Positions 5,703 through 41,892 of a stretch of 41,892 nt of DNA are shown piece by piece. Where the stretch lies: NCBI GenBank assembly GCA_015039365.1, contig WION01000459.1, positions 1-41,892 of the forward strand, read 5' to 3'. The stretch comes from Amanita rubescens. Lineage: Eukaryota; Basidiomycota; Agaricomycetes; Agaricales; Amanitaceae. The notes beneath the pieces were generated by a model. That model saw only the letters and a list, made by a program, of their open reading frames with translations, ran no database searches and had not been told where the DNA came from. The translations under genes and the position numbers were made by a program. Position 1 is the stretch's first letter. Every line of letters starts with the position of its first letter.

Positions 5703-8700
5703 ATGGCAGATAAAGCTAGCAAAGTTTCATCAAGTATGCCAACTTGAATTCTTGACATTCCCAATGTAATACTACTATACTAATTTAACTCACACAAATC
5801 AGATACAGAAGAAGCATATGTCAAAGGGCTCCGAGAGCGATATGAATGCCAACATTTTCGTATCCTTGTCATAGGCAGGGCTAATGCTGGCAAAACAACC
5901 ATCCTTGAGAAGGTTTGTGGTGTGGCAAAGGGAACAAAACCCATCATATATGGCAAGGATGGTAAGAGAAATTGGATTTTTGCAAATCCTTTGACTATTG
6001 AGTTTCTCTTAGGCAAAAAGCTAAAACAGTCTTTATCTCATCTAATGCCATCAATGGAGGTCAGTCAAATATTGATGCATGAATGAACATTCATCAGCAA
6101 TGATAACAGAGAGGCCTACATGACATTGAGCATCAAATTACATACAAAGGCAGTAATTTCATTTTTCATGACTCTCAGGGTTTTGAATCTGGTGCAATTG
6201 AAGAATTGAAGATTGCTTGGGAGTTCATCGAAAAAAGGTCTGCAGAAACTGAGCTAAAAGATCAGCTGCATGCAATCTGGTATACCACCTTAGCTCTTGT
6301 AATATGTACCTGGCTGACTAACCTTCTTATAGGTACTGTATACCCATGGATAGTCCTCGACCCATTCTAGCCACAGAACTTGAGTTCTTTAACAAAGGGA
6401 CTGGCAAAGGTACATTCTGATGATTAGCAAATTTGGTTTGGTGCAGGAAATTGCCTCTCAGCTTTGATTGACACTTCTTGCCCACTAACCAAGCCTTCCA
6501 CATCCCAAAAAATCTATGGTCAGGCCTATAGTGTGCTGATTAGTAAATGCTTTTTTTATACAGTTCCATTGGTGGTCGTATTCACCAAGTTTGATGGTCA
6601 AGTAATCAGTGAATATACTGGCTTGCCTGATACAACAGCAACTGAGGATAAGTGGGAATATGCCAGGAAAAATGCTGAAAGTGTTTTCTGCAGTGTTTAT
6701 CTTCCAAAAATCTTGGATACCAAATATGCACCTAAAGCATATGTGCGACTGGAAGGTGAGAATAGTGAACATTTCTGCCTCCAGACTGGAAATAATGGTG
6801 TTCAATAGACATGGATCTATTTGAGAAGAATTGCCCTGAATTGACTCAGCAAACTGCTGATGCAATTGATGATATCATCTTACATGAGTTGTTCATCTCA
6901 ACACAGATGAATAACCTTGATCTCTGTGCTAAAGCTGCACTTCAGTAAGGGCCCATTTAAAATCTTGTTTTAAGTATTGACCTTGCCTAGACACATCTTG
7001 GTTTCTAAATTTGACTGGAATGATGCCATCATTGCAGTCTTTGTTAAATTTCCACATTTTTGGGTAAGCATATGGATTGTGCCAATAGTTGCATATGATG
7101 GATTTGGAACAGATTGACAGAAGTGTAGGTTTTTTTGCATTATTGTATATGAAATAATAAATAACAAATTGTGCAACAGGATGTAAATGGCACTTCAATT
7201 CCTTTGTGTGCAAGCCTGGTTGACAATGCTAGAAATCTGTTGATGAAATACATGTGAGTTGTCATCATCATATATGTATCTGTTGCAAGATTGCAAGAAA
7301 GTATCTGATATGTATGATTGACAGTTGGTGAGTAGAATTCAATCAATATACCTTTAAGGTCTTGTCCCATGATAAATAGTTTGTGAGTGATAATCCATGT
7401 TAATGCTCAGCAATCTTGTCTTATGATCAACAGGGAGTGAGTGGCATCACTCCATTTTCCTCAGATAATCCCATGCTGAACCATATACATAACCAACAGA
7501 AAGTGAGTAAATCTATATTTTCAAGCTGCCTTGCCACATTCCATTGACATCTTATCCAAATAACAGGGAGTGAGTGGTGCCACATATTTCTTATATTGCC
7601 TCATATCCTACTTGAATACAGAAGGTAATGAGTATCCTAATATTTCTGAGGTATCTTAGGCCTGATTAAAGTGACAGAGGGTTAGTGACACTATATTTTT
7701 ATCTGGCAAATAATTTCATCAGATGTCACCTCGTGAACAACAGAAAGTGAGTGATTATACCCTTCATCCTGTCATTCTAATGAAACTGATAAAACCTTCA
7801 TGCATAAAAAGGCAGTAAGTATCAACATGCACATATCCAAAGTAATGACTAATCAGATTTCTATCAACAGGATGTGAGTGATACTTCTCGTGAAAGCTGG
7901 CCTAATCATATCCAGCACAGAAAGTGAGCGACAATGATTTTCTCTTCAAACACAACTTACTATGGTCATCAGGAAGTGAGTGGTGTCACTGGTGTGGATC
8001 ACCCCCTCTGATGGGTAAACCCATGACATTTTTATGATCAACAGCTAGTCAGTCACCTGCACATTTTCTGACAGCAGTTTCATGATACATGTTTCAACTA
8101 CCAATAGAGAGTAAGAAAATTGTACATTTTCATGAAAGAATGTCTTATTCAAACATGTCTTTCCATGACCAACAGAAAGTTAGTAACACTGCACATTTTC
8201 ATGAAGGGCAGCTTCATCACATCTTTTATGTGACCAACAGCAAGTAAGTGAAATTAGACATTTCTGCACAGTTGTTAAATTGTTGCAATCCTTCTATGAC
8301 CAACAGAAAGTGAGTGGCATTGCATGTTTTTATGGAATGCATCTTTAACACATCTTTCATTTGACCAACAGGATGTGTGTGGTATTGGAAATTACTCTGA
8401 TGACCTTCTCAGCACATATCTTTCTATCACCAACAGGGAGTGAGTGACATTGCACTTCCTTTGTAAGGTACACTCACATATTTTTTTCCTTTCACCAACA
8501 GTTTGTGGGTAACATTGCATGTTTTTCTGAAAGACACTCTTGTCATATCTTTTGTCATAACAAATAGGGTGTAAGTGATGTTGCAAATTGATCTAAACAG
8601 TGGTCTTAGGACAGATTTTCCCATGACCAACAGGAAGTGAGTGATTTCCTTCTCAGAATGCAATCTCATCACTACTGATCCTATAACCAACTTAGGTTGT

Positions 8701-10627
8701 GAGTGAAACTTGTGCACTTTTGTGAATGATGGTCTTGTAACAATTTTTTCCATGATTAAAAGCTTGTGAGTGATATCCAATGTTTTAATGAAGATCATGT
8801 CACATCTTTTCTTCATCAAAGCGAGTGAGCTATTTTGCACATTTATCAGTCTTATCACATTGTCAATACTTGTAGTTGGTAAGTATCATTTCATATTTTC
8901 ATGAGGGATGGTTTCATCACTTCTTTCACAGGCTGTGAGTGACTTTGGCCATTTTTTGATGCTGGCAGCAACAACACATCCTTTGCATGATCACCAGTGG
9001 GTGAGTAATGTTCTATGTCATTCTGAAAGGTCATCTCATTCATCTCATTTCCTGCAATAAACAGCAAGTGAGTGAGATTGCACATTGTTTGAGAACTTTG
9101 TCTTATAACATCTTCCTTTTGCCAACAGCTTGTGAGTAATGTTGCAGTTTATGCTCAACAATAATCCCATAACATCTTTATCCAACCAATAGGGAGTGAG
9201 TGGTATGGCATTTTTGGTGATAGGCAGTCTCAACATATTATTTTATGACCAACAGTTTGTAAGTAACATTACATTTTGGGGAAAGGCAGTTTATTGAATA
9301 TTTCCTTATGGCCCACAGCAAGTGAGTGTTATTTCATATTCTTTACAAGGGGCATTCTCATCAATTCCCTTCCTATCAATAACAGGGAGTAAGTGACATG
9401 AACAATTTTCTTGAAAGTCTCATATGATGGTTTTTAATAACAGCATGTCAGTAACAATGAATATCAGTTTTAATAAGGCAACCTAATCACCTTTTCTGGA
9501 TCTAACAGGGAGTTAGTGACATTGCACAATTTCTCAAAGGCTCTCACCACCTCTTTTTCTCTGATGAACAGCTTGTGAGTTATATTGCAAACTTTCTCAA
9601 AGGCTATCTCATCACCTCTCTTTTTTTCTGATGAACAGCTTGTGAGTGATATTGCAAACTTTCTCACAGTGCTACAGTATCTCATGCTGCCAACAGAAAG
9701 TGAGCAATATTGAAAACATTTCCAAAAATCAGCTTAGTGACATTTTTTCCTATTACTCACAGGGTGTGAGTGACATGACACATTTTTTGGCAGTATCATC
9801 ACATATTTATATTTTTTATGATCAACAGCTAGTGAGTGACACTGGATATTCTTCTGCAAGGCAGACTGATCACATGGTATGGTTTCTTATACCCAATAGG
9901 AAGTGAGTGTCATTATAATTTTTTTGATGATCTTGATTTACATACACATTTAATAGCCAGTAAGCACATAAGCTTATCCTTCCTTGGTCTAATGTAACAT
10001 CACCCATAGATCGTATGATATCACTACATCTCACCTAATCCTTCTTCCCCATATGAGTGTCTTGCTCTGCAGGTAAGTCTAGTAACTTGGGAGCTATCAA
10101 TTGTGATATCAATCTTCTTGCTAGATTGTAGGTCCAATAGTCCTGGCACTGGAGGTTCTTCAACTTCTTATAATCAGCATGAAATTTTCTGTTGGTTTGG
10201 AGATCAACAAACAAATCGAGACACCAGATTTGCAAAAACTGTATGGTCACCATTTTACCTTACATGAAGAAACTGACACAACTACGACCAGCCTACAACC
10301 TGCCAAGCCTTAGTTGGTAAATTATTCCATTCATTCATACTGTTTATGCTAACACTTTCAAGCAATCATTGTTGTCACCCAACTATCATTTTGGATTCAA
10401 AAGCCATTTATGCCAGCAATTAAAGAAGTATTGGACCAATGCAAGGATAAAGGCTATTTTGAAAAACTGAAAACCATCATTACTTCTGAAACTATGCATC
10501 TTGGTCATTCAGAATTGGTTGCATTCCTGCAGAAGCAAGTTATCCAATTGGTGGTATGTACTTCATTTACTATTCAGGGACTACTTATGCACATATTGTA
10601 TGGCAGGATGAAATACACATAACTTGA
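5703..10627 (+). CDS. Fungal P-loop GTPase with a 44-unit 3-nt microexon array in its C-terminal half
   Basis: Exons 5703..5733, 5803..5961, 6013..6059, 6110..6279, 6333..6409, 6564..6755, 6809..6944 and 6991..7063 give 295 codons. P-loop GRANAGKT is at residues 35-42, DxxG is HDSQGFESG, and the base-recognition motif is FTKFD. Then follow LEDMDLFEKNCPELTQQTAD, DDIILHELFISTQMNNLDLC and FVKFPHFW, all known features of the expanded Agaricomycete GTPase family. The small exons 7113..7124, 7180..7182 and 7233..7253 lead into 44 single-codon exons (7325-10012). The 3' exons 10363..10553 and 10607..10627 encode IIVVTQLSFWIQKPFMPAIK, a helical tail and DEIHIT-stop. The link 10013-10362 is ambiguous: either exon 10125..10245 (IVGPIVLALEVLQLL) or exons 10178..10240 plus 10292..10316; both keep frame. 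A cryptic in-frame exon may also lie in the 6410-6563 intron. The gene is AT-rich. Confidence 0.7.
7325..10012 (+). repeat. Array of 44 single-codon (3-nt) microexons in ~65-bp intron-like units
   Basis: Each unit is an acceptor (mostly CCAACAG), a variable triplet, then a donor (mostly GTGAGTG). Triplet starts: TTG 7325, TTT 7380, GGA 7434, AAA 7500, GGA 7567, AAG 7622, AGG 7678, AAA 7744, GCA 7812, GAT 7871, AAA 7921, GAA 7973, CTA 8045, AGA 8108, AAA 8176, CAA 8241, AAA 8307, GAT 8372, GGA 8437, TTT 8502, GGT 8568, GAA 8634, GTT 8696, CTT 8763, CGA 8822, TTG 8876, GCT 8932, TGG 8998, CAA 9065, CTT 9129, GGA 9193, TTT 9256, CAA 9319, GGA 9386, CAT 9444, GGA 9509, CTT 9572, CTT 9639, AAA 9697, GGT 9763, CTA 9829, GAA 9900, CCA 9957, ATC 10010. 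Spacing is 50-72 nt. Intron interiors are related (ATTGCACATTTTC, CTCATCACATCTTT) but diverged. No triplet is a stop. The predicted residues are basic in the first half and Gly/Leu-rich in the second. Confidence 0.8.
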
Positions 10628-14739: not shown

Positions 14740-14828
14740 TTGGCCTTTTAGAACGAAGTGTATCCGTGATGCATTGATGCGTGACACTGAGTGACAGTTC
14801 GACGTTCTGCCTTCACCGTCCACCTCAA

Positions 14829-15300
14829 ATGTCGGCGACGGATACACGGTGAGCCTCTGCGCGCAGTGCAGAGATGGAGCTTTCACGCTTACTTCTCCAC
14901 CAGGATCTTTGAATTGCCAGACTTGGAGGATGAAATGAAGGGCCGAGAAGTCGCATTCGGCTACCTCATTGACGACAAATTCGTACACAAGTTCTTCCTG
15001 AATCGGGTACGCAGTGAAAGACTGCAAGATGTTACGGTATCGGAAGGTCCCTTCAAGCGATATGTGAAAGCGTCTCTCGCACGGGATGCTGCATTGGAGG
15101 CGGGATGTCCAATATCAACTCTGAATGTCAGAGTACCAAGAGGGAGTGGGGGAAAAGAAGAGGCGGTTATTGCCGCTTTTTTCATGCGTGGTCCTACATA
15201 TGTTGACAGGTATCCCCCCACTGTCGATGACCTGGACAGGTTCAAGGAGTGTCTATTCTTAGATGTGGATGATAATCCTAAATGGCATATATTGAGATGA
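14829..15300 (+). CDS. Member B of the ~130-aa family, intact reference copy
   Basis: A 20-nt first exon (14829..14848, MSATDTR) joins across a 55-nt GTGAGC..CCAG intron to exon 14904..15300. The ~138-aa product reads FELPDLEDEMKGREVAFGY, DDKFVHKFFLNRVRSERL, PFKRYVKASLARDAALEAGC, RGPTYVDRYPPTVDDL and DVDDNPKWHILR. It is mixed alpha/beta-like with no signal peptide, membrane segment or known catalytic motif. At least five related copies occur in this window (14402, 29800, 32411, 35450, 36598), so it belongs to an expanding lineage-specific family. The conserved short first exon and phase-2 intron across copies support the model. Function unknown. Confidence 0.65.
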
Positions 15301-32410: not shown

Positions 32411-32892
32411 TCAACATATATGCCATGTAGGATCATCATCAGCATCTAGGAACAGCTGCGCCTTAAACTTGGCCATCCGACGGGCAGTGGGGCGGTGCGT
32501 GTCAGAATATGTGGGACCACGCCTGTAAAAAGCGGCAATAATCGCCTCTTCTTCCATCCCGCTCTCTCTTGGTAGGCTGACATTCAGAATTGCTACTGGA
32601 CATCCGGCCTCCTGAGCAGCATGCCGTGCTATAAACGCTTTCACATGTCGCCTGAAGGGGCCTGCTGATGTTTTGACATCATATAGTCCTTTACTGCGTG
32701 CCCGATTCAGGAAGAACTTTTGCATGAACTTGTCGTCGATGAGGTAACCGAGTACAACTTCTCGGCTCTTCATTTCGTCTTCCAAGGGTGGCGATGGAAA
32801 GAACTTGGTGGAAGATGAGCTGGGGAGAATCAGCGTAAATGACGTTTCTCTGCACTGTGCGCAGACGCTCACTGTGTATCCGGCGCCGACAT
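32411..32892 (-). CDS. Member D of the ~130-aa family, intact
   Basis: The minus-strand exon 32892..32873 (20 nt, MSAPDTH) and intron 32872..32820 (GTGAGC..CCCAG) lead to exon 32819..32411. It reads SSSTKFFPSPPLEDEMKSRE, VVLGYLIDDKFMQKFFLNRA, PFRRHVKAFIARHAAQEAGC, EEEAIIAAFYRRGPTYSD and DADDDPTWHIC-stop. It shares the 20-nt first exon and phase-2 intron with member B and is full length. Compared with B, substitutions are spread along the protein and the frame is intact, which suggests it is or recently was functional. No known domain was recognised. Confidence 0.65.
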
Positions 32893-36597: not shown

Positions 36598-37009
36598 TCA
36601 TTTCATTATACGCCATTTCGGATTATCATCCGCAGCTAAGAACAGACGCGCCTTGAACTTGGTCAGTTCACCGGTAGTGGGGAGGTACTTGTCAACATAT
36701 GTGCGACCACGCATGTAAAAAGAGACAAAAACCGCCGCTTCTTTCTCGCCGTTGTCTCTTGGTAGGCTGACATGCAGAATTGCTATTGAAGATCCCGCCA
36801 CCCAAGCGGCCTGCCGCGCGATAGTCGCTTTCACATGTCGCTTAAAGGGGGCCTTCAATGCTTTGTCATCATCCAGTCCTTTACTGCGTGCCTGATTCAG
36901 GTAGAACCTCTGCACGAAATTGTCGTCGATGAGGTAACCGAGTGCAACTTCTCGGCCCTTCATTTCGTCTTCCAAAGGCGGCGGTTTAAAGATCTCGGTG
37001 GAAGACAAG
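36598..37009 (-). CDS. Member F of the ~130-aa family, lacking the usual first exon
   Basis: The minus-strand exon from a CTAG acceptor (37010-37013) to the stop at 36598 reads STEIFKPPPLEDEMKGREVA, LGYLIDDNFVQRFYLNQARS, PFKRHVKATIARQAAWVAGS, VSFYMRGRTYVDKYLPTTG and AADDNPKWRIMK. The second exon is full length and open, but the expected MSAxxT first exon and GTGAGC donor are absent. Immediately upstream lies a truncated STR2-like pseudogene, so a breakpoint has replaced the 5' end. Expression would need a new start. Confidence 0.5.
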
Positions 37010-39959: not shown

Positions 39960-41892
39960 ATGAGTAACCAAAACCACATTATAGCGGACAACCAACCCAC
40001 CTTTCCAATTGTGGCCAGCTCAGGTGGCAATTTGCTCACTGGAGCTCAGAATGTTATTGTCACAGGTAGCCAGTTGTTTGGGATCCATGGGAACTACTAT
40101 GTATGTAACTTTGGGTTAATGTGATGATATCAATTATCATGATTTTAGCAAATAATCTCTGGCCATCACCCAGCTGTATCTCCTGATATGCTACCACCCT
40201 TGCCTCCTCTGAAGCATTCCAGCACTATGTTTACAGGTCGTGGTAAATACTTAGAGAGACTAAAGGATTATTTTGGCTTGAGTACTACAGGACAAAGGAA
40301 GTCATTTCTTTTGCATGGTATGGGAGGTATTGGCAAGACCCAGATTTGCCTTAAATTCATTGAAAAACATGAAACTTTGTGAGTGCTACTAGACAGTTTA
40401 CATAGCTACATAATTGAGTATCCTACACAGGTTTTCTGACATATTTTGGATTGATGCTTCTTCAGAGAGTACCATTGACCTCAGACTCAAGCAAATTGCT
40501 CAGGCAAATAGTGCCACTGCTGAAGCTGCCTCTTCAGCTGGATCTGCTCTCAAGTGGATTTCTAAGAGGTTGAATTGGTTGATGATATATGATAATGCAG
40601 ATGGTGGATACCAAATAGTAGAAAAGTTCCTTCCTCCTGGAGATGAAGGAAATATCTTGATAACAAGCAGGAATTTGGAATTGATGAGAATCACAGAGAA
40701 TTTAATGGAGGTTCTTGAAATGGGAGAAGAGGAGGCACTATCTCTGCTGTCAAAATCAGCCAGGCTGGATTACAGATCAGAGAATATGCAAACAAAGGGA
40801 AAACAACTTATTTCCAAGCTGGGAGGCATTCCACTTGCAATTGACCAAGCTGGGGCATATATGCTAGCTTGTAAATCCCCCCTTGATGATTACCTGGAAT
40901 TATATGCCAAGAATCATGATGAATTAATGTCTAATCCTTTATTCAAAGGAGCATCTGATTATGGATCATGCACCTATGGAACTTGGGAAATCTCAATGAA
41001 AGAAATTGAAGCAAGAGCTGCAAAAAAAACAAATCCTGAAGCTATAGCAGCTGAGAGTGCACTTGCTCTACATCAGATAATTGCATTTTTGCATCATGAG
41101 AATATACCAGAAGAGTTGTTCAGAAATGCTGCAGAGAACTACAAGAAGAGGAACATTGATGAAGAAAAGGAATCTGGTCTCCCACTTTCAATAACAATGT
41201 TAAACCCTAAGGTGTTGTTCTTGGATGAGAATGGGGAATGGAATAAAATGCAATTTCAATTAGGAATTCAAGTGCTGCTGTCATTTTCTCTGATTAAGAG
41301 CACTGGGAAAGTTTATTCAGTCCACCCTTTAGTGCATGCTTGGAGCAGGAATAGAGTGCCAAACATGGACATTGTACACCAGCTTCTTATGGCAAAGGCA
41401 TTTCTAGCCTGTTCTGTGGAGTTGGACTATGAGATTGACAATTATGAATATTGTCAGTTACTTGCACCACACATGAGGACAATGAATAATCAGGCAGCAC
41501 AGCTAAATCTTGACAATTTCTACTATGATGAATGTGATCGATTTTCACTTGTATTCCATCGTGTTGGGAACTGGAATGAAATGGAAAAGCTAAGGATGTG
41601 GATGTTGGAAAGGCAGAAAGCAAGTCTTGCACCAAAGCATCCCCTTGTTCTGAATAGCATGGCTCATCTAGCATCCATATACTGGAATCAGGGGAGGTGG
41701 GATGAGGCAGAGAAGCTGAATGTAGAAGTCATGGAGGCAAGCAAAGAAAAGCTTGGTTTACATCACCCAGACACTCTTAGCAGCTTGGCTAATTTAGCAT
41801 CCACATACAGGAACCAGGGGAGGTGGGATGAGGCAGAGAAGCTGGAGGTAGAAGTCATGGAGGCAAGGAAAGAAAAGCTTGGATCACATCAC
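39960..41892 (+). CDS. NLR-like STAND protein, NB-ARC plus TPR repeats, 3' end outside window
   Basis: Exons 39960..40100, 40149..40378 and 40431 to the end, with matching phases (introns GTATGT..TTAG and GTGAGT..ACAG). The N-terminus MSNQNHIIADNQPTFPIVAS is followed by a Gly/Asn-rich GGNLLTGAQNVIVTGSQLFG motif. The NTPase has Walker A LLHGMGGIGKTQ, Walker B LNWLMIYDNAD, sensor-like GNILITSRN, a GLPL-like LGGIPLAIDQAGAYM and VHPLVHAWSR near the winged-helix end. From 41638, 42-residue TPR units start (HPLVLNSMAHLASIYWNQGR, then HPDTLSSLANLASTYRNQGR) with kinesin-light-chain-type WDEAEKLxVEVMEA. In fungi such proteins act in non-self or stress sensing. The gene is AT-rich, like the GTPase at 5.7 kb. 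Confidence 0.88.
41638..41892 (+). repeat. Near-identical 126-bp TPR-coding tandem units
   Basis: Two units, 41638-41763 and 41764 to about 41889, share long exact stretches such as GGGGAGGTGGGATGAGGCAG. High DNA identity implies recent duplication or gene conversion. The array probably continues past the window. Confidence 0.85.

Follow-up and report, generated by a model that had tools for sequence, protein, structure and literature searches.

Arrays of consecutive single-codon exons predicted in a GTPase gene family of Amanita rubescens

Can a segment of a protein be encoded with each residue in an exon of its own? The question is raised by a GTPase gene of the basidiomycete Amanita rubescens on contig WION01000459.1 of assembly GCA_015039365.1, of which we analysed positions 1 to 41,892 of the forward strand (41,892 nt, hereafter the window). 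Here, 44 successive sites of the form AG-NNN-GT were found at 7325..10012, with starts 50–72 nt apart, and an initial annotation had read them as consecutive 3-nt exons. The explanation we favour, with a probability of roughly 0.87 given the sequence data, is that the array represents 44 spliced single-codon exons of an apparently intact GTPase gene, encoding a variable disordered linker and forming a codon-by-codon diversity cassette. Single-codon splicing fits the scarcity of stops, the length of the exons, their phase, and the joined peptides of related open reading frames (ORFs).

The longest chain of AG-NNN-GT sites in the window (step 45–75 nt) comprised 44 sites in 7254–10072, compared with 1.8 on average and at most 4 in 200 dinucleotide shuffles, and at most 3 in the remainder of the window and its minus strand. 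The site number and spacing first reported were therefore reproduced, but the uniform GT(G/A)AGT donor was not: it was exact in 30 of the 44 sites, with 14 variants (e.g. GTAATG at 7625, GTCAGT at 8048, and GTATGA at 10013). As first noted, no stop occurs among the 44 triplets, although this is weak evidence alone: with stops making up 3.5% of the triplets inside array introns, a stop-free set would arise with a chance of about 0.2. An Rfam scan of the window gave no match.

A hand-completed gene model on the forward strand ran from an ATG at 5703 to a stop at 10627 in 59 exons (45 of them 3 nt long), and was open throughout its 450 aa. Its GTPase part (5703..7063) consisted of eight ordinary exons (5703–5733, 5803–5961, 6013–6059, 6110–6279, 6333–6409, 6564–6755, 6809–6944, and 6991–7063), which spliced into an open, in-phase frame with the P-loop GRANAGKT and the C-terminal end ...KFPHFW; homologues reached at most 79% identity among those listed. 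Three short exons followed in phase (7113..7253): IDRS (7113–7124), D (7180–7182, also 3 nt long), and KSVDEIH (7233–7253), a place taken by VDRE and MANEQLSE exons in the models of several paralogues. The array proper (7325..10012), with 44 single-codon exons and 43 introns, would encode the peptide LFGKGKRKADKELRKQKDGFGEVLRLAWQLGFQGHGLLKGLEPI. Its first 13 codons, LFGKGKRKADKEL (7325..8047), make up an older 5' part, which codon-string comparison found to be collinear with the conserved codons WFEQGKKETDREI of paralogues. Downstream lies a 165-nt intron (10013..10177) with an internal CAG/GTAAGT resembling a zero-length exon (motif 10069–10078), a layout that possibly reflects two-step splicing. 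The C-terminal exons (10178–10240, 10292–10316, 10363–10553, and 10607–10627) encode HEIFCWFGDQQTN...TCQALVAIIVVTQLSFWIQKPF...DEIHIT and the stop; they were placed by hand from the C-terminus of the family, in the part that aligned with the ORFs P0014, P0019, and P0022. In agreement with the initial annotation, the spliced array was in phase with IDRS, D, and KSVDEIH upstream, and with these coding exons downstream as far as the stop.

The initial annotation had confined the array to one gene. Our own first explanation, a single odd gene, was dropped once the unit proved to occur genome-wide, as a property of a large family. In the assembly that contains the window (75.7 Mb, 786 contigs), the pattern CAACAG-NNN-GTGAGTGA occurred in exact form at 2,177 sites, compared with two for the reversed pattern; duplicate loci and, possibly, second haplotypes contribute to the genome-wide counts. 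A single stop (TGA) was present among the 2,177 triplets; those of the form TRR (n = 14) were 13 TGG and the one TGA, with no TAA or TAG. When the halves of the pattern were allowed to lie 0–12 nt apart, 2,249 sites were recovered, of which 2,177 had a spacing of exactly 3 nt. The others were spaced by 6 nt (n = 25), 9 nt (n = 8), 12 nt (n = 4), 0 nt (n = 2), or 1, 2, 4, 5 or 11 nt (n = 33 together), and some of the long-spaced sites may be ordinary exons. Triplets of the form NAG, which could act as a second acceptor, numbered 14 genome-wide.

A codon-blind chain search of 23 sequences (22 fetched loci and the window) gave a similar picture. With every locus kept, 1,218 triplets contained one stop, in L030, a locus fetched because of its stop; the 691 distinct units over all loci include this one stop. 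Without L030 and four duplicates (L011–L014), none of 961 codons was a stop, where base composition per codon position would predict 45 and intron triplets 34. The longest chains comprised 85 units in L009 and 84 in L013, and no chain of at least 8 units was found on the opposite strands of the 23 sequences.

We assessed whether array-like peptides occur in joined form in related proteins. A protein search gave 1,374 homologues, and statements on ORFs rest on the 120 that were listed. These included 22 Joint Genome Institute (JGI)-only ORFs on contigs of at most 2.6 kb, which are likely complementary DNA (cDNA) because they run without a gap through the positions of up to seven GTPase-part introns. 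The motif FP[HN]xW was reached by 13 of the 22, and in six of the 13 (P0001, P0008, P0014, P0019, P0022, and P0046) a W-F array segment came after it. P0001 reads ...FPHLWVDRAVTNEQLSETKWFEKGKKESDREIEYDGG..., and the joined peptide of the relatives, WFEKGKKESDREIEY, can be set beside W-F-E-Q-G-K-K-E-T-D-R-E-I-K-Y of L009, where each residue has one exon. The scores of P0001, P0046, and P0008 against the L009 string were reached by 0 of 2,000 shuffles, and those of the same three ORFs against the window string by 0, 3, and 15 of 2,000, respectively. The best of 12 ORFs was about 79% identical to the fetched loci, which are therefore not their source; the ORFs stem from relatives or from genes outside the fetched set. 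The C-terminal domain was reached by P0014, P0019, and P0022. The first two share 89% identity overall but differ strongly in the array segment, and a protein search with residues 285–461 of P0014 matched only these two. Together, the open 59-exon model, the one stop among 2,177 triplets, the exon length of nearly always 3 nt beside a variable intron length, the 5' residues conserved among paralogues, and the relatives' joined 5' peptides support the initial reading of consecutive single-codon exons in a GTPase gene, as judged from sequence. Two further JGI GTPase ORFs, P0107 and P0109, from a more distant fungus, have a post-FPH segment rich in repeated E, H, Y, L, and R that is dissimilar between both, and perhaps represent the same device outside Amanita.

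A number of observations weigh against this reading. The clean in-phase path was obtained for the window only; the automatic model of the window gene diverged between 10013 and 10362, and the automatic models of L009, L013, L018, L023, L025, and L028 were odd just before the array (automatic models were rough and served as leads only). The annotated A. rubescens models examined stop before or near the array start or, in the case of P0084, omit the array. Among the 13 motif-reaching ORFs, seven were without the array segment; four of the seven (P0005, P0059, P0096, and P0112) ended 16–26 residues past the motif and may retain introns. P0014, P0019, and P0022 matched the L009 string weakly (29–34 of 2,000 shuffles) and did not match the window string (139 to 1,801), while P0069 matched the window string (18) and not that of L009 (309 of 2,000). 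The cDNA nature of the JGI ORFs, although likely, is deduced from their intron-free reading, and all are from relatives or unfetched genes. Moreover, a protein query composed of the array plus the C-terminus yielded no match, not even P0046. NAG triplets were mildly rare in the fetched loci (12 compared with 20 expected), and exons of 0, 1, 2, and 4 nt in L019 (contig C749) and of 2 and 4 nt in L017 (contig C13) upset the frame. L019 looks like a decaying array, which makes it a natural control for the fixed exon length elsewhere. Between duplicates, the ratio of codon to intron divergence was 0.94 (95% confidence interval 0.29–1.81; 9/366 vs 156/5,964 bases), pooled over five paired stretches with 122 codons, to which L025–L026 contributed 13 from its conserved 5' part. 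Codons thus diverge like introns, and residues therefore look little constrained, stops and length aside.

Two explanations would deny the array a coding role in an intact gene, and we consider both very improbable. The array could be a non-coding minisatellite within one long intron, with AG-NNN-GT merely marking where 65-nt repeats meet and the whole skipped as a 2.9-kb intron. Array units are indeed tandem repeats of period 65 in many paralogues, the annotated model P0084 passes from FPHYW directly to the C-terminal exons, and skipping would keep the frame, all exons being 3 nt. However, the one stop among 2,177 triplets and the near-fixed length of 3 nt would be unexplained without translation, triplets vary inside otherwise identical repeats, and the peptide of the conserved part is joined in transcript-like ORFs. 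Tandem Repeats Finder also detected only 9515–9666 of the window array, while the splice-site frame persists throughout. The second explanation is that the window gene is a decaying pseudogene, and L017 and L019 show that arrays can lose their frame. The window gene, by contrast, is open across 450 codons and 59 exons with a terminal stop, and its copy on contig C79 (L010) retains 37 of the 38 array codons compared, with one synonymous change, at 2% intron divergence; a 63-residue GTPase stretch is identical in the two.

How did codons and introns of the arrays come to differ in their diversity? The 5' codons WFEQGKKETDREIKY or close variants were present in 16 fetched loci, with some chains shorter (L013 and L014 duplicate L009); L025 and L026 had LFEKGKKQTDK in this part, as the window has its own string. 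For the pairs L009–L020, L009–L021, and L020–L023, one of 14–15 5' codons differed while introns were 6–10% diverged, with indels; differences amounted to 2 of 10 codons for L009–L027 and 6 of 13 for L009–L025. The conserved 5' codons are old, with diverged introns; many loci have a young 3' part. L009 contains 69 units of exactly 65 nt, in which diversity per site was 0.65 for codons and 0.033 for introns. Diversity per site was 0.34–0.66 for codons compared with 0.005–0.11 for introns across 14 stretches, each with at least 12 units of this exact length (13 of the 15 loci gave stretches, with L014 duplicating L009; such units were too few in the window and in L029). Introns were about 10% apart in the older arrays L020, L024, L025, and L026. 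Of the unit pairs in L009, the 836 with identical 62-nt introns shared the codon in 17% of cases, compared with 14% for all pairs. Array codons mostly end in A or T, with a G+C content at third positions (GC3) of 0.07, compared with 0.36 in 295 ordinary-exon codons of the window gene. The near-identical loci L009 and L013 are one CGA unit apart, and L015 and L022 have their last 30 array codons in common, but not the preceding ones.

These patterns favour homogenisation or spread of introns over hypermutation of codons, for which a fast mutator is unneeded, given that codons do not outpace introns in divergence between duplicates. Growth through simple duplication of neighbouring units was rejected as well (neighbours shared codons slightly more often than in permutations, 95 times compared with 76.7 expected over 18 stretches, with P below 0.05 in three of the 18). 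A 3-nt target-site duplication as the source of the triplets was set aside by reasoning, as it would leave equal triplets on both sides. U1 pairing was likewise discarded as the cause of codons ending in A or T, because an exon-final G, present in 5% of array codons, closes six of the window gene's eight ordinary exons.

Intron spread in particular would mean that a short intron was recopied into one codon boundary after another within a coding linker, in the manner of introners and perhaps via RNA, such that the codons are old and the introns new. This is an account of origin, and is compatible with the array being a set of spliced single-codon exons. In its favour, identical introns part unrelated codons, codon identity being nearly independent of intron identity, and the equal rates of codons and introns between duplicates imply that codon diversity within arrays is probably older than intron identity. 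Set against it are the codon usage of the arrays, unlike that of the ordinary exons of the window gene, the strict phase 0 at all boundaries, unlike scattered introner insertion, and the gain or loss of a whole unit between L009 and L013. The distribution of the listed copies stands on the same side: one 62-nt intron has 352 perfect genome copies, and the first 100 of them, those listed, lay on four contigs, three with fetched GTPase-array loci and the fourth, C12, with a single listed copy inside an array at the contig end, upstream of a weak family C-terminus. On balance we regard this origin as possible but rather unlikely. A similarly tentative proposal concerns function, with alternative splicing as the main role, whereby different combinations of single codons would be kept or left out to yield many isoforms per gene, as reported for the truffle Tuber melanosporum. 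All 44 exons are symmetric and any subset would stay in frame, and later papers, in their accessible text, describe such splicing for the codon-sized microexons of Tuber; the contrast between P0014 and P0019 in the array segment points instead to separate loci or alleles.

Under the favoured reading of spliced single-codon exons, the short introns would be removed one after another, with each exon adding one residue to the linker. Because one unit joins an intron of some 62 nt to exactly 3 coding bases, recombination in introns would add, remove, or swap whole residues without shifting the frame; in this way the array could act as a codon-by-codon diversity cassette. Residue variation, perhaps together with in-frame exon skipping, might then diversify a surface for nonself recognition or a similar interaction. 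This is the weakest step, drawn by analogy with fungal recognition genes. A bolder idea, which we consider improbable, is that the short intron is itself the carrier of codon-by-codon writing. Through a process specific to introns and likely mediated by RNA, its copies would come to occupy all codon boundaries of a recognition linker and homogenise without touching the codons, while recombination would edit a hypervariable protein residue by residue across a large family, as a germline analogue of an immune repertoire.

Structure prediction is consistent with a linker. The AlphaFold model of P0014 (37 sequences) had a mean predicted local distance difference test (pLDDT) score of 81, with values below 50 at 295–355, which covers the array-homologous segment, and mostly at least 90 in the flanking domains. 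The array-encoded segment is accordingly predicted to be a disordered link between the G domain and a helical C-terminal domain. Pfam scans gave only sub-threshold GTPase matches (MMR_HSR1, Arf, and G-alpha) in four of five relatives and none in P0001, and PF01926 is present in some of the listed homologues. The top PDB folds were the immunity-related GTPases (IRG) Irga6 and GM4951, but with template modelling (TM) scores of 0.30–0.42 and 11–15% identity, and we therefore do not claim IRG membership.

Many small symmetric exons in variable proteins are known from schistosome micro-exon genes and aphid bicycle genes, whose exons are not known to be as short as one codon. The initial annotation knew of no array of this length with 3-nt exons. 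In the literature searched, which included few subscription papers, nothing on arrays of this kind turned up for Amanita or other basidiomycetes; in fungi at large, arrays of 3-nt exons have precedents. For the expanded NACHT-ANK (nank) family of T. melanosporum, microexons of 3 bp, the size of a codon, are described in their tens (Iotti et al. 2012, as cited in PMC4986451, PMC3689799, PMC9815663, and PMC10197012). As far as these sources describe it, the two cases share an ectomycorrhizal lifestyle, the expansion of a gene family, and tens of 3-nt exons, to which diversification of a recognition segment is ascribed. A. rubescens similarly has dozens of 3-bp exons per gene (45 in the window gene, and chains of 84 and 85 in L013 and L009) and an expanded family (150 scored matches to one GTPase exon). 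The host genes differ, being NOD-like receptor (NLR) genes of an ascomycete in Tuber, and a basidiomycete family of G-domain proteins, not NACHT-ANK, here. What sets the present case apart from Tuber, as far as the latter is described in these sources, is the occurrence in Basidiomycota, the GTPase family, the more than 2,000 units, and the tandem near-identical introns, while arrays of 3-nt exons are themselves known.

Other systems share single traits with the arrays. Isolated exons of 1–3 nt are reported to be spliced in vivo in Arabidopsis APC11 (PMC4674806) and Drosophila homothorax (PMC7392893), the internal exons of the latter having the same CAG-exon-GTGAGT/GTAAGT frame as A. rubescens arrays; in the accessible text of both, these tiny exons are single, while those of A. 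rubescens stand in arrays. As to presence of the exons in spliced RNA, as for such microexons, joined peptides were observed in six of the 13 transcript-like ORFs of relatives, none from A. rubescens. Podospora HNWD and other fungal NLR genes are likewise described as carrying near-identical repeats that are kept alike by exchange while chosen codons differ, with length polymorphism and a role in nonself recognition (PMC4986451, accessible text). Near-identity of repeats save for variable codons is also seen here in the codon and intron diversities per site, and as for positive selection at variable codons, the ratio between duplicates was 0.94, with a wide interval (0.29–1.81). However, the repeat described for HNWD and NLR genes is coding (WD, ANK, or TPR), whereas in A. 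rubescens 62 of 65 nt are intron, with one codon per repeat. The introner-like elements of fungi are near-identical spliceosomal introns in many copies, as here, but according to the accessible text of PMC4457414 they sit in unrelated genes, whereas the copies listed here lie head to tail in one GTPase family and in phase 0.

If the exons are spliced as predicted, the spliceosome of A. rubescens would process 3-nt exons in consecutive runs of dozens within a gene, and thousands of them across the genome, an arrangement that exon-definition models do not foresee and that the gene models examined miss. Such proteins could gain, lose, or swap single residues with the reading frame intact, and the arrays would offer a rare view of intron multiplication and of whole-residue protein editing without frame shifts. 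With the truffle case, they suggest that two fungal phyla arrived at the same device in expanded families.

Across the genome, one exon of the window GTPase gene had 150 scored matches (219 candidates), including possible haplotype copies. Pairing these with the 150 listed C-terminal matches (same strand, within 12 kb) joined 92 of the 150 and left 58 unpaired; the 92 paired loci had 2.35–10 kb between the GTPase exon and the C-terminal match, and none was compact. Among ten annotated A. rubescens proteins set against the fetched loci, more than half of the length was covered at 98% identity or higher for P0039 (86%, in L021) and P0031 (63%, in L020) only; the other eight may be encoded on contig parts outside the fetched loci. 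Contig C12 ends within its array (locus L031), and arrays may break this assembly, so that the true number of units may be higher. The segment 7325–8600 of the window is copied on three other contigs (C546, C349, and C79), two at 100% and one at 95%, which may be haplotypes or segmental duplicates.

Elsewhere in the window, three related small ORFs with the pattern LEDEMK.REV..GYLIDD (14791–15300, 32411–32872, and 36598–37008, on both strands) form a small repeated gene family. A tandem repeat of 126 nt occupies 41656–41892, and presumably resembles TPR-type coding repeats of high internal identity.

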